Shown here: positions 10,202 to 19,856 of the stretch, piece by piece | Layout: the number at the start of each line of letters is the position of its first letter | Position numbering within the stretch: position 1 is the first letter of the stretch | Assembly (NCBI GenBank): GCA_016842085.1 | Contig: JAEVEX010000021.1 | Coordinates: forward strand, 1 to 64,000 | DNA from: Candidatus Thermoflexus tengchongensis | GTDB lineage: Bacteria > Chloroflexota > Anaerolineae > Thermoflexales > Thermoflexaceae | DNA length: 64,000 bases | Direction of reading: 5' to 3' | The notes under the pieces: generated by a model | What the model saw: the letters and a program-made list of their open reading frames with translations, nothing else | What the model was told of the DNA's origin: nothing | Databases searched by the model: none | Position numbers and translations under genes: made by a program

Positions 10202-11272
10202 TCAGGAAATCTGAACCAGCCGCTCCGGGGCAACCACCCTCTCCTCACGCTCTTCAACGGCAAACCCGCCCGGTGGTTCCTCATGGACCAGCCGATCCCT
10301 ATGCCGGGCTTGCTCTTCAAACAATCGCGGTCGATCCACATACAGGATCAGCCGGAATACCTCCGGACGGTTGTAATGCCCGGCGTAGTCATGCACGAGC
10401 TTGGCGGAGAGCACCTCGTTGAGATCGATATCGGCAATCAGGACGTCCTCTTCCCCCCCTAATGGACCGGCAATCACGTTACCATGCGGATCAACGATGA
10501 GGGAGCCACCGGAGACCCCGGGCCGGGACAGGAAGGCCTCATCCTCCGAAGAGGCTGGCAGACGACGGCGCATCTCCTCACTCACGGTCCCCGCCGCGCT
10601 CAGTACATACGCATTCGTGCGATAGCCCAACGCCCGGCTGGCCATCAGGATGACATCCCGCATCAGGTGTTCATTCTTCGAGAAGTGATTCGGCCAGCTT
10701 ACCGCGATGATGCGAGCCCCCTGAGCGGACAGAGCGAAAGTGGCCAGAGGATTGCTGGCCTCTCCACAAATCAGGCCGCCGATGGGGCCGAACTCCGTAG
10801 GGAACACCCGTAATGTATCTCCGAACCCCGGCGCGTGGACTAGCCGTTCCCCTACGGTCGGCATGATCTTCTGGTGCTTGCCCAGCAGGCGGCCATCGGG
10901 AGCGAAGAAGAGCTGAGAATTGTGCAACAGACCCGGGTTCACGGGATCCCGTTCACAGACTCCGATCACTACGTAAACTTTTCGCTGAGCCGCCGCGCGG
11001 CCGATGGCCTCCGTTGCCGCACTCGGGACCTCCACCGAGTTGGCCATCAGCTCTCGTGCCATCTCCAGGGCGGCCCGGATGGTGGCAGCGTGGAAGTGAT
11101 ACCAGACCGGATGGGCGGGGATGAAACCTTCGGGAAAGACAATCAGGCGTGCACCATGGTCCGCGGCGCGGTGGATCCACTCCACAGCGCGAGCTACCGA
11201 CCCCTCCCGATCCAGGAAAGCCGGGGCCGCCTGAATGACCCCTACCCTCACCACCGGAGAACGATCTCCCAT
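10202..11272 (-). CDS. Aliphatic nitrilase / cyanide hydratase family protein
   Basis: The protein has 356 residues. The catalytic triad is Glu48 (FPEGFIP), Lys135 (GKHQKIMPT) and Cys169 (LICGEASNPL). The CGE sequence and the HPVWYHF loop are typical of true nitrilases that convert R-CN to the acid plus ammonia, rather than amidases. A second nitrilase at 23535-24530 has the same three residues at the same positions, so the two are close paralogues. The C-terminal 40 residues (VEEREERVVAPERLVQIS) are specific to this copy. It is probably cytosolic and oligomeric (spiral filaments are known in the family). Confidence 0.92.
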   Translation of the reverse strand: MGDRSPVVRVGVIQAAPAFLDREGSVARAVEWIHRAADHGARLIVFPEGFIPAHPVWYHFHAATIRAALEMARELMANSVEVPSAATEAIGRAAAQRKVYVVIGVCERDPVNPGLLHNSQLFFAPDGRLLGKHQKIMPTVGERLVHAPGFGDTLRVFPTEFGPIGGLICGEASNPLATFALSAQGARIIAVSWPNHFSKNEHLMRDVILMASRALGYRTNAYVLSAAGTVSEEMRRRLPASSEDEAFLSRPGVSGGSLIVDPHGNVIAGPLGGEEDVLIADIDLNEVLSAKLVHDYAGHYNRPEVFRLILYVDRPRLFEEQARHRDRLVHEEPPGGFAVEEREERVVAPERLVQIS

Positions 11273-11342: not shown

Positions 11343-11891
11343 TCACAGCTCGGCGCTGCATGCAGGCTCGACATCCCCCAGCCCAAGCATCTCCACGACC
11401 TTCCCGAACCCATCGGCCAGCGCCATGAAGGTGGCCAGCTCGACCAGCTCGGCGTCGGAGAAGAACTGACGCCATCGCTGAATGTGTTCTGCGGAGATCG
11501 CGCGATAATCCTCGGTGAACAGAGTGGCCATCTCCAGGGCGGCTTGCTCCCGCGGGGTGAAGATTGAATCCTCCAGATCCCAGATCCGCTCCAGCTTGGC
11601 CGCCAGGCCCTCCATCCGCTGCGCCGCAGCGGACCGCACCCCGCTTCAGTAGCGGCATCCCCTCAGCAGAGCCATGCGAACCCGCATCAGCTCCTTCAAC
11701 GCATGATCCACCTTTCCTCCATAAAAGGCGGCCTCCCACGCTTCGTAGAAGATCCGAAGGGACGAGGGGTCATGCGCCATGACCCGCAGCAAAAGCGCAT
11801 TCGGTGCGCCTCGCGCCTCCGCCCGCTCCAGATACGGACGGAGGGTCGGGTCGATCGCCGCAGGCTCAAGGGGAGAAACCCGTGGCGCCAT
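11343..11891 (-). CDS. Carboxymuconolactone decarboxylase/AhpD-like protein with in-frame TGA (candidate selenoprotein)
   Basis: Reading through the TGA at 11646-11648 gives one 182-residue protein that starts at the ATG at 11891, behind CCGGAGGAGG. The half before the TGA (ending KELMRVRMALLRGCRY) and the half after it (SGVRSAAAQRM...) are in the same frame and together cover the CMD/AhpD fold. The TGA falls at residue 82, three after Cys79, where AhpD-like proteins have the second Cys of the redox CxxC. A hairpin fitting a bacterial SECIS follows directly. Sec-containing AhpD-like proteins with CxxU are known. The alternatives are a nonsense-inactivated gene or a sequencing error of TGC/TGT to TGA. 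The normal stop is also TGA. Likely role: thiol or selenol peroxidase/reductase. Confidence 0.7.
11615..11645 (-). promoter_or_regulatory. Candidate bacterial SECIS element
   Basis: On the minus strand, 12 nt after the TGA comes a perfect 8-bp stem (11626-11633 with 11615-11622) closed by a 3-nt loop GGC, so the loop starts 20 nt after the TGA and begins with G. Bacterial SECIS hairpins known to bind SelB have an apical loop about 16-37 nt after UGA with a G in the first two loop positions. In GC-rich DNA such hairpins also arise by chance, so this is supporting evidence, not proof. Confidence 0.55.
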
Positions 11892-11907
11892 CCAATCCTC
11901 CTCCGGT

Positions 11908-13128
11908 TCATCCCAGCAACCGCTCATCGAAGGGCGCGCGGGACATGACATAAGGTCCCCGCTCCGTGATCAGGACCATCTCCTCCAGACGGACCCCTCC
12001 ACCCCCCCGAATACCCTCCACCCAGATCAGGGGTTCCACGGCGAAAACCATCCCCGGCTGGAACTCAATCACGGGGGCTCCCGGAGAGGGCTCGCCGATG
12101 TAAGGAGGCTCGTTAGCTCCCATGCCGATCCCATGGCCGATGAACAGGGAGAGGAGGTGATCCTCGAGCCCGTGCCGGCGGGCCGCCTCCCGAACCGCCC
12201 GGGCCGCCTCCTCATTGGTCCGGCCCGGGCGCATGGATTCAATGCAGGCCTGCAACGCCTCATAAACAGCAGTGAAGATCCGTCGCTGCTCGGGAGAGGG
12301 CCGCCCGCAGATCACCGTCCGTCCGACGTCGGCATAGTAGCCGTTCCAGCATGCCCCGATATCGATGAAGACCACATCCCCGTAACGAATCAGCTTGTCC
12401 GTCGCAAACCGGTTCGGAGGAGCCATTCGCTCCCCGGAGGCCACGAAGGGCGTCACCACATGGGCGTATTCCCCACCCAGGGTAAGGAGGGCGCGCAACG
12501 CCTCCCCGGCCACCTCGCACTCCCGCACCCCTTCCCGCACCGCCGCCACCGCAGCGGCCGTGACGGCATCCGCGATGGCCGTGGCCTCCTCCAGGACTGC
12601 GATCTCTTCCGGGAACTTGATCCGGCGGGCGCGTTGCATCACCGCATCCCCATCCGTGAGTTCGACTTCCGGAAGATGGCGAGTGATAGCGTGGACCATC
12701 GCCATCGGCCCCGCATCCATCCCGATACGGGCCCGGGACAGTCCGTGGTCCCAAAGCAATGGGACGAGCTGATCCCGGATGAAGGCTTCGATCAGCCCGG
12801 CATCCTCCATGATGGGGATGGGGTAGACCTGGGAGATCCAGGGCATCGTCCGGCGCACCCGATCCACCTCGCCCCCGGAGCAAAACAGGATGGGAGCATC
12901 CTGCTCCAGGAGCAGGGCGCCATTCAAAAACGAGGACTTGCCTGCGATCTGCTGCGCACGCAGATCTGTCAGATAGCGAACGTTCTCGTCTTTCCAAACC
13001 AGAAGGGCTTGAAGTCCCTCCTGCCGCATGAGCTCGCGCACGCGCTCTACCCGCTTCCGACGCAGCGCCGTGAAGTCGATGCGCTGTTCATAGGCGGTGT
13101 TGAACGGACCGACGGCGAAGCCCTGCAT
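11908..13128 (-). CDS. M24 family metallopeptidase (Xaa-Pro aminopeptidase-like)
   Basis: The protein has 406 residues. An N-terminal creatinase-type domain (to about 170) is followed by the pita-bread catalytic domain. All five dinuclear-metal ligands are visible: Asp in VFIDIGACW, Asp in YADVGRT, His in IGHGIGMG, Glu in AVEPLIW and Glu in RLEEMVLI. It should remove an N-terminal residue before proline or act on a small related amide. It lies 3 bp after the amidohydrolase gene and 16 bp before the AhpD-like gene, so all three are probably one transcript. Confidence 0.9.
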   Translation of the reverse strand: MQGFAVGPFNTAYEQRIDFTALRRKRVERVRELMRQEGLQALLVWKDENVRYLTDLRAQQIAGKSSFLNGALLLEQDAPILFCSGGEVDRVRRTMPWISQVYPIPIMEDAGLIEAFIRDQLVPLLWDHGLSRARIGMDAGPMAMVHAITRHLPEVELTDGDAVMQRARRIKFPEEIAVLEEATAIADAVTAAAVAAVREGVRECEVAGEALRALLTLGGEYAHVVTPFVASGERMAPPNRFATDKLIRYGDVVFIDIGACWNGYYADVGRTVICGRPSPEQRRIFTAVYEALQACIESMRPGRTNEEAARAVREAARRHGLEDHLLSLFIGHGIGMGANEPPYIGEPSPGAPVIEFQPGMVFAVEPLIWVEGIRGGGGVRLEEMVLITERGPYVMSRAPFDERLLG

Positions 13129-17244: not shown

Positions 17245-18516
17245 TTACTTCTTCGGCGGATTGAATCCGGGCTGGTAGTCGCGGCTGTAGACCGGCCGCT
17301 TCAGATACTCCTCCGGATCCCACTTCCAGAACTGCGATACGTTCGGAATCGTCTCCAGCACCACATTCCACACCCGCCCGTCCGGCCGCCGCTCCACCCT
17401 CCGAATGTAAACATTCAAAATGGGATTGCCGTATTCATCCAGCTTCTCCGGCCCAAACGGCGAGTCCTTCAACTCCACCTTCCGAATCGCATCCAGAAAC
17501 GCCTTCTGATCCTCCACATTCCCCTGCACCGCCTCAATCGCCTGCGTCAACCACTGCGCCGCTGTATACATCGCCGCCGCATAGTAGCTCGGAATGTCCC
17601 CATATGCCTCCATATACGCCTTCACAAACTCCTGCGTCGCCGGACTCTCCCGCCCCTCCGCATAATGCCCCGCCGAAATAATCCCCACCACGATGCTGGG
17701 GTCCTGAAGGCCCCGGATATTCGACTGATCCACCGTGGTCTCGCCAGCCAGGAGCGGGATCTTATCCTTCAGGCCGAACTGGGCCCAGGCCTGGAGAAAG
17801 CGGGTCGCCGATGCGCCCACCTGGATGGCGAACACCGCGTCCGGCTTCAAAGCCTGAATACGTGCAATATACGAACTGAAGTCCTGTTCGGTCAGGGGAT
17901 CCCACAGCTGCTCCAGAACCTTGCAACCGGCATCCGTGTAAGTATTCACGAAGCCGCCCACCACCTCGTGACCGAAGGCGTAGTCATTACCCAGAGTGAC
18001 GATGGTCTTGTATCCCTGCTTGCAGGCCCACTCGCCGAAGGGATGATGCACCTGGCTGCTCGTCCAGCCCGCCACCCGCAGGATGTTCGGCGACCGTTTG
18101 CGCTGCGTCAGATCATCCGCCGAAACTACCGGCATGAACATTGGAACATTGGTACCCTTGATGTATTCCGCCACGGCCAGCCCCTCATTCGCCAGGAGCC
18201 CGGGAGCAGCCAGGAGGTGGATGCCGCGCTGCTCCACCAGGAGGCGGGCCTTGTTCAGGGCCACGTCCGGATTGCTCGCCGTGTCCTCGTGGAACCACTG
18301 CACCTCCCGCCCCGCCACCCTGTTCCCATGCTGCTTCCACCACAGCTCCCACCCCCGCACCATATCCTGCCCGCCGGCCGCCGCCGTGCCGGTTGTAGGG
18401 GTGAGAATTCCGATCTTGATCGGCCCCTTGGCCGCCCCCGATGGCCTCCCTCCGGGCGGCGCACACCCTACCACCAGCAGCAGCGCCACCACCCCATACA
18501 CGATCATCCGTCGCAT
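17245..18516 (-). CDS. Liv-type ABC transporter substrate-binding lipoprotein (copy 1)
   Basis: The protein has 423 residues. The signal MRRMIVYGVVALLLVVGCAPP ends in a lipobox with the lipidated Cys of GCAP, so it is anchored outside the membrane. The mature part is a periplasmic-binding fold of type 1 (IKIGILTPTTGTAAAGGQDMVRG...). The start at 18516 has AAAGGAGGGCAGCC in front; a longer frame upstream reads into the neighbouring copy. Its last about 145 residues and the N-terminal QDMVRG...EDTASNPDV stretch are the same as in copy 2, while the ligand-binding middle differs. The two may bind different ligands and share one membrane complex. Confidence 0.92.
   Translation of the reverse strand: MRRMIVYGVVALLLVVGCAPPGGRPSGAAKGPIKIGILTPTTGTAAAGGQDMVRGWELWWKQHGNRVAGREVQWFHEDTASNPDVALNKARLLVEQRGIHLLAAPGLLANEGLAVAEYIKGTNVPMFMPVVSADDLTQRKRSPNILRVAGWTSSQVHHPFGEWACKQGYKTIVTLGNDYAFGHEVVGGFVNTYTDAGCKVLEQLWDPLTEQDFSSYIARIQALKPDAVFAIQVGASATRFLQAWAQFGLKDKIPLLAGETTVDQSNIRGLQDPSIVVGIISAGHYAEGRESPATQEFVKAYMEAYGDIPSYYAAAMYTAAQWLTQAIEAVQGNVEDQKAFLDAIRKVELKDSPFGPEKLDEYGNPILNVYIRRVERRPDGRVWNVVLETIPNVSQFWKWDPEEYLKRPVYSRDYQPGFNPPKK
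17258..17694 (-). repeat. Identical 437-bp block, copy A (3' part of binding protein 1)
   Basis: By direct reading every base matches 18593-19028 at an offset of 1334 (first match 17258/18592, last match 17694/19028). The identity stops sharply at both ends, as expected after gene conversion or a very recent partial duplication. Confidence 0.85.
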
Positions 18517-18581
18517 GGCTGCCCTCCTTTCCCCAAAAGGATGGCTCGAGGGATTTGAAATTTTAAAAACCCATTGACCTG

Positions 18582-19856
18582 CTACTTCTTGGGATTGAAT
18601 CCGGGCTGGTAGTCGCGGCTGTAGACCGGCCGCTTCAGATACTCCTCCGGATCCCACTTCCAGAACTGCGATACGTTCGGAATCGTCTCCAGCACCACAT
18701 TCCACACCCGCCCGTCCGGCCGCCGCTCCACCCTCCGAATGTAAACATTCAAAATGGGATTGCCGTATTCATCCAGCTTCTCCGGCCCAAACGGCGAGTC
18801 CTTCAACTCCACCTTCCGAATCGCATCCAGAAACGCCTTCTGATCCTCCACATTCCCCTGCACCGCCTCAATCGCCTGCGTCAACCACTGCGCCGCTGTA
18901 TACATCGCCGCCGCATAGTAGCTCGGAATGTCCCCATATGCCTCCATATACGCCTTCACAAACTCCTGCGTCGCCGGACTCTCCCGCCCCTCCGCATAAT
19001 GCCCCGCCGAAATAATCCCCACCACGATATCGGGATTCTGCAAACCTCGAAGGACATGTTGATCCACCAGGGTCTCGTTGGCCAGGAGCGGGATCTTATC
19101 CTTCAGGCCGAACTGAGCCCAGGCCTGGAAGAAGCGAATCGCCGGGGCCCCGCTCTGGGCGACGAACACCGCGTCTGGCTTTAAAGCCTGGATGCGGGTG
19201 AGATAGGGGCTGAAGTCCTGTTCGTTAATTGGGTTCCACAGCTGCTCCAGAACTTTGCAACCGGCATCCGTGTAAGTGTTCACAAAACCGCCCGTCACCT
19301 CATGGCCAAAGGCGAAATCGTAGGAGAGGGTGACGATGGTCTTGTATCCCTGCTTGCAGGCCCACTCGCCGAAGGGATGATGCACCTGGCTGCTCGTCCA
19401 GCCCGCCACCCGCAGGATGTTCGGCGACCGTTGGCGCTGCGTCAGATCGTCCGCCGAAACTACCGGCATGAAGAAAGGAACATTGGTGCCCTTGATGTAT
19501 CCGGCCACCGCCAACCCCTCATTCGCGGCAAGAGGCCCGACGAGCATATGGACGCCGCGCTGCTCCACCAGGAGGCGGGCCTTGTTCAGGGTCACGTCCG
19601 GATTGCTCGCCGTGTCCTCGTGGAACCACTGCACCTCCCGCCCCGCCACCCTGTTCCCATGCTGCTTCCACCACAGCTCCCACCCCCGCACCATATCCTG
19701 CCCGTTCGCTGCAAAGGCCCCCGAGGCAGGAGCAAGGACCCCGATCCGGATAGGTCCTCGGGCCCCGCCGGACGGGCCGCCTGCTGGTGCACACCCGATT
19801 GCCAGCGCAATCACAACCATGAACAGCATGAATCCCATCCCGTGGCCCCGGCGCAT
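18582..19856 (-). CDS. Liv-type ABC transporter substrate-binding lipoprotein (copy 2)
   Basis: The protein has 424 residues. The signal (MRRGHGMGFMLFMVVIALAIGCAP) has a lipobox at IGCAP. The mature domain is again a type 1 periplasmic-binding fold, starting IRIGVLAPASGAFAANGQDMVRG. It ends KPGFNPKK-like, one Pro shorter than copy 1. Differences to copy 1 concentrate in the central region (for example SGAPAIRFFQAW against VGASATRFLQAW). It lies between livM and copy 1 on the same strand, with 12 and 65 bp spacers, so the importer can be loaded by either protein. Confidence 0.92.
   Translation of the reverse strand: MRRGHGMGFMLFMVVIALAIGCAPAGGPSGGARGPIRIGVLAPASGAFAANGQDMVRGWELWWKQHGNRVAGREVQWFHEDTASNPDVTLNKARLLVEQRGVHMLVGPLAANEGLAVAGYIKGTNVPFFMPVVSADDLTQRQRSPNILRVAGWTSSQVHHPFGEWACKQGYKTIVTLSYDFAFGHEVTGGFVNTYTDAGCKVLEQLWNPINEQDFSPYLTRIQALKPDAVFVAQSGAPAIRFFQAWAQFGLKDKIPLLANETLVDQHVLRGLQNPDIVVGIISAGHYAEGRESPATQEFVKAYMEAYGDIPSYYAAAMYTAAQWLTQAIEAVQGNVEDQKAFLDAIRKVELKDSPFGPEKLDEYGNPILNVYIRRVERRPDGRVWNVVLETIPNVSQFWKWDPEEYLKRPVYSRDYQPGFNPKK
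18592..19028 (-). repeat. Identical 437-bp block, copy B (3' part of binding protein 2)
   Basis: This is the partner of 17258-17694. Codon choice in this block is C-rich and less G-ending than in the flanking parts of the same genes, which hints that the block may have come from another paralogue. Confidence 0.8.

Follow-up and report, generated by a model that had tools for sequence, protein, structure and literature searches.

A very probable CxxU selenoprotein of the AhpD/CMD type encoded in a catabolic gene cluster of Candidatus Thermoflexus tengchongensis

Known AhpD-like selenoproteins and the Thermoflexus gene

AhpD-like and CMD-domain selenoproteins with a CxxU motif were described in 2005 and 2008 from the Sargasso Sea and GOS selenoproteomes (PMC1088965, PMC2398784), and they are included in a 2026 review (PMC13188914), from which the bacterial SECIS model used here, with its four constraints of loop, stem, spacing and energy, is also taken. 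In the AhpD of Mycobacterium tuberculosis, Cys130 and Cys133 make up the catalytic pair, Glu118 precedes Cys130 by 12 residues, and the relay histidine is called invariant among the family members compared (PMC3141380). A literature search for a CMD selenoprotein in Chloroflexi found no paper, and the sole term match for Thermoflexus together with selenocysteine (Sec) was a paper on single cells of Chloroflexi from the marine subsurface.

The gene considered here lies in a 64,000-nucleotide stretch of Candidatus Thermoflexus tengchongensis DNA, the whole of which is called the window, in a genome of 100 contigs that is 95% complete. The features discussed below are as follows.

11343-11891, minus strand: coding sequence of the AhpD/CMD-like, very probable selenoprotein, 182 residues with Sec82 (PF02627 match; AlphaFold model with AhpD-like matches in the PDB)
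11891-11889 and 11345-11343, minus strand: start ATG and terminal stop TGA, between which 182 codons are read
11646-11648, minus strand: in-frame TGA, the predicted Sec82 codon, at the second position of Cys-x-x-Cys by its homologue column
11655-11657, minus strand: Cys79 codon, the likely resolving partner of Sec82, invariant in the homologue alignment
11691-11693, minus strand: Glu67 codon, 12 residues before Cys79, invariant in the homologue alignment (spacing compared with PMC3141380)
11634-11636, minus strand: Arg86 codon, at the position of the AhpD relay histidine (CxxCxxxH) in the homologue alignment
11615-11633, minus strand: SECIS-like hairpin, with a perfect 8-bp stem (11633-11626 with 11622-11615) and the loop GGC (11625-11623)
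11897-11902, minus strand: Shine-Dalgarno-like AGGAGG, 5 nt upstream of the ATG, read from the sequence
11908-13128, minus strand: upstream gene, M24 peptidase/creatinase-like (Pfam)
10202-11272, minus strand: downstream gene, nitrilase-type C-N hydrolase (Pfam)

AhpD/CMD-like CxxU selenoproteins are thus already known, and the Thermoflexus gene is a further example of them, with an arginine-type active site as the one departure from the AhpD description. Set beside the published descriptions, it shares the CMD/AhpD homology, the Sec at the position of the second cysteine and a SECIS with an apical G directly downstream. The Thermoflexus lineage differs from the described proteins in having arginine in place of the relay histidine and in scoring far under the nearest NCBI cut-offs. 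Near full-length alignments are obtained both to TIGR01926 (peroxidase-related enzymes; E 2e-13) and to NF053654 (YciW-related (seleno)protein; E 2e-15), but at 50.5 of 81.8 bits and 57 of 310 bits, respectively. Because it falls below both curated cut-offs, the protein is not a formal member of either family.

The in-frame TGA and its hairpin

Translated from 11891 to 11343 on the minus strand, the gene reads MAPRVSPLEP...ELMRVRMALLRGCRY-U-SGVRSAAAQ...SAEL, with a single internal TGA at codon 82 (11648-11646) in the motif Cys79-Arg-Tyr-TGA82. The preliminary description, which gave no strand, had proposed that the two sides of this TGA belong to one frame and one CMD/AhpD-like protein, and the 182-residue reading and its PF02627 match bear this out. 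A GTG start candidate lies just 3' of the TGA; an N-terminally truncated product is possible in principle, with no ribosome-binding site evident. Matches to the protein occur in 49 of 400 Chloroflexota genomes (profile search, E 1e-15), most with exactly one internal TGA, and in a 32-row alignment the column of the window's TGA holds TGA in 25 rows and cysteine in seven. The codon, three residues after Cys79, therefore falls where the second cysteine of CxxC had been expected, and an in-frame TGA aligned to the redox cysteine of homologues is one mark of a bacterial selenoprotein gene.

Relatives carry TGA at exactly this codon, and where homologues have cysteine it aligns to the TGA, as the preliminary description had anticipated for orthologues. 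Among eight other genomes of the same genus, the gene was found in one, that of Candidatus Thermoflexus japonica (about 70% identity), and a homologue with 57-58% identity is present in an acidobacterium; both have TGA at codon 82. Downstream of the TGA the comparison gives pN 0.27 and pS 0.51 against T. japonica, and pN 0.28 and pS 0.58 against the acidobacterium, values that indicate purifying selection. Upstream of the TGA, synonymous sites are saturated in the T. japonica comparison, so that only the downstream value of dN/dS is usable. The seven genes with cysteine instead of Sec are L046 (in genome G360), L045, L048, L049 and L051-L053, and the tree requires at least two Sec/Cys changes.

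The hairpin stem begins 12 nt after the TGA and the loop 20 nt after it. Its coordinates agree with the 8-bp perfect stem and GGC loop reported previously, and the placement within the bacterial SECIS range holds under the published model, all four constraints of which it satisfies (loop GGC, 8 bp, 20 nt, -13.2 kcal/mol for the hairpin alone; PMC13188914). A 48-nt stretch starting at the TGA has a folding energy of -27.6 kcal/mol; shuffled sequences average -19.4 (z -3.9), and none of 200 shuffles was as good. Counting both strands, the window has 1,603 TGA triplets, and a SECIS-like hairpin with eight Watson-Crick pairs in the allowed range follows only four of them; another of these four (11665) is 17 nt upstream of the codon-82 TGA and can only share the same hairpin region.

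Covariation was assessed in 24 of the 25 TGA genes, gap-free from the TGA through the hairpin (L056, identical to L054 here, was left out), in an alignment that uses the TGA as its anchor and was not adjusted to the structure, which itself comes from one of the rows. The window's stem is paired in 87.5% of cells across these genes, against 63% in shuffles, and six of the eight stem pairs show double-sided changes (51 in total, against 15 in shuffles). The covariation score is 0.731. Five hundred shuffles gave 0.252 (sd 0.034) and no score as high, and sliding the stem partner gave 0.085-0.196. At the common register, 22 of the 25 TGA genes keep seven or eight of the eight pairs, while the seven cysteine genes keep one to three. 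Two TGA homologues, L035 and L042, pair poorly at this register (5/8 and 3/8), and a shifted SECIS is possible in them.

The presence of selA, selB, selC and selD had been put forward as a check on the Sec reading, and all four components were found: a tRNA-Sec with a UCA anticodon (80.8 bits, gathering cut-off 47), SelB (327.7 bits over both stretches, cut-off 242), SelA (564 bits) and SelD (378 bits). The SelD gene (L013, G000:C90:11133-12068) has its own in-frame TGA, in SCAG-U-ASK, and probably encodes a selenoprotein itself; the genome therefore probably holds at least one further selenoprotein gene. SelA is also present in the T. japonica and acidobacterium genomes with the TGA gene. The genomes with the cysteine form retain both SelA and SelB, so the presence of these two proteins cannot separate Sec genes from Cys genes; the genomes without SelA, or without a full SelB match, are fragmented assemblies.

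Readings of the TGA other than Sec account poorly for these observations. Were it a true stop, the locus would hold a pseudogene or a pair of distinct short ORFs, and the standard code does split it into ORFs 11951-11646 and 11639-11343. However, genes from different phyla share a TGA at this codon, the sequence beyond it is under purifying selection, the hairpin covaries and the Sec machinery is complete. All this speaks against a true stop, which is very improbable and was rejected, in view of the conservation across independent genomes. A sequencing or assembly error that turned TGC or TGT into TGA is more improbable still and was discarded on the same ground: nothing was found in its favour, and TGA and hairpin recur in independently assembled genomes, which a base-calling error or chance does not explain. 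It may also be asked whether UGA is read as another residue, such as tryptophan or cysteine, because the code has changed or a near-cognate tRNA decodes it. No observation in favour of this was found. Against it, neighbouring genes are normal under table 11 and the gene itself ends in TGA, a tRNA-Sec with the UCA anticodon exists alongside SelA, SelB and SelD, and the residue aligned to the codon is a redox cysteine, while the hairpin persists in the genes with TGA and is missing from those with Cys; such a reading is accordingly given very little credence. It is therefore highly likely, as judged from sequence, that the gene encodes a selenoprotein in which UGA codon 82 specifies Sec. The earlier call of a Sec-containing AhpD-like gene has withstood the sequence-based attempts to refute it, through the machinery, the TGA/Cys column, and the SECIS constraints and covariation. 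Ribosomes would insert selenocysteine at UGA codon 82, with SelB and tRNA-Sec delivering it and the hairpin immediately 3' of the codon as the signal.

Fold, active site and possible reaction

The PF02627 match (34.9 bits, cut-off 23; E 1.5e-8) places the protein in the CMD superfamily, and the AlphaFold model, built with cysteine in place of Sec, has a pLDDT of 87.7 and a pTM of 0.84, with confidence lowest near the active-site helices (residues 81-100, block means 68-81). In the PDB, the model is closest to AhpD-like, peroxidase-related proteins and to the debrominase Bmp8, at TM values of about 0.75-0.80. Glu67, Cys79 and Sec82 reproduce the Glu-x11-Cys-x-x-Cys (or Sec) pattern of AhpD-like peroxidases. 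The relay histidine, four residues after the second cysteine in those enzymes, is replaced by Arg86, and across the 32 homologues this position is arginine in 19 and histidine in 13.

Among individual proteins, the AhpD-like PA0269 (2O4D/2IJC) shares the fold, the Glu/Cys/Tyr/Cys arrangement (C-x-Y-C) and the spacing of 12 from the glutamate to the first cysteine, whereas the Thermoflexus protein has Sec for the second cysteine and Arg86 for His55. The AhpD of M. tuberculosis has the same spacing of 12, and Sec82 stands at the place of its Cys133; it differs in having His137 where Arg86 is found, and the structural match is weak. Bmp8 (6OHI, 6OHJ) is the top structural match, has the CxYC motif and also matches the family profile. 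However, its identity to the Thermoflexus protein is 18%, it has cysteine and not Sec, and the substrate in its crystal is a bromopyrrole.

The product would be a helical thiol-selenol oxidoreductase of the CMD/AhpD fold, the fold being a confident prediction. Sec82 would probably be the attacking residue, and Cys79 would resolve the selenenyl-sulfide. The substrate would most likely be an electrophilic intermediate, a peroxide or another, produced by the cluster for C-N bond catabolism around the gene. A peroxide-handling role had been suggested earlier, and that suggestion stands in part: the protein agrees with AhpD in its fold and in its Glu-x11-Cys-x-x-Sec spacing, but peroxidase activity is not assured because the AhpD relay histidine is arginine.

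It may be that the protein is a selenoprotein but no peroxidase, and that the Arg-type clade consists of selenol/thiol reductases acting on a small electrophile, for example in a Bmp8-like reductive dehalogenation. This rivals only the peroxide role and is a possibility worth entertaining, if on the doubtful side. The structural rank of Bmp8 and its match to the family profile favour it, as do the arginine at the relay position in this clade, the catabolic cluster that surrounds the gene in each of the two Thermoflexus species, and the lack of a peroxiredoxin-type neighbour among ten genes scanned. The low identity to Bmp8 counts against it, and AhpD-like peroxidase-related structures match about equally well. 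A broader proposal is that the Arg-type, largely Sec-containing group (Thermoflexus, the acidobacterium and several Chloroflexota families) forms a selenoenzyme family of its own, in which arginine replaces the proton-relay histidine and whose members are not peroxidases but, for example, reductive dehalogenases that use the selenol, or other reductases of a catabolic pathway. Such a family seems rather unlikely on present comparisons.

Gene neighbourhood and distribution

The stop codon of the upstream M24 peptidase/creatinase-like gene lies 16 nt before the ATG of the selenoprotein gene, a gap that suggests co-transcription of the two. A promoter and terminator scan gave no match. The minus-strand cluster around the gene encodes nitrilases, a cyclase, an isochorismatase, an S15 hydrolase, an FAD oxidoreductase, an M24 peptidase, an amidohydrolase and a Zn-alcohol dehydrogenase. 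It had been called an oxidative catabolic cluster, and "catabolic" is apt; "oxidative" is loose, as the genes are mainly for C-N hydrolases (nitrilases, amidohydrolase, isochorismatase) plus dehydrogenases. Beyond the cluster are genes presumably for ABC transport of the branched-chain type. Two neighbouring genes in the cluster, both for ABC substrate-binding proteins (17245-18705 and 18582-19856, minus strand), resemble each other closely and look recently tandem-duplicated. Elsewhere, in an M24 peptidase-like gene (L057, G000:C34:9013-10059), homology crosses an in-frame TGA, apparently near the N-terminus; this TGA may be a genuine stop, or it may reflect a frameshift or another start.

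In T. japonica this cluster again contains the selenoprotein gene, at a different place, where the isochorismatase and cyclase genes flank it. In another genome of the genus, G001, which is a fragmented assembly, cluster genes occur on an 11.5-kb contig without the selenoprotein gene, and the gene thus looks like an accessory to the catabolic cluster. The tree joins the acidobacterial gene to those of the two Thermoflexus species in a clade with 100/99 support, apart from other Chloroflexota genes and subject to a long-branch warning. This grouping hints at horizontal transfer of the gene.

Standard gene calling cuts the gene at the codon of its probable catalytic residue, and the protein stays under the cut-offs of the curated NCBI models nearest to it. 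If this CxxU group of Chloroflexota and Acidobacteriota, with its covarying SECIS, were recognised, the annotation of dozens of genomes would be corrected. The group also poses the question of why Sec is used by a redox protein encoded in a catabolic cluster, with arginine in place of the relay histidine.
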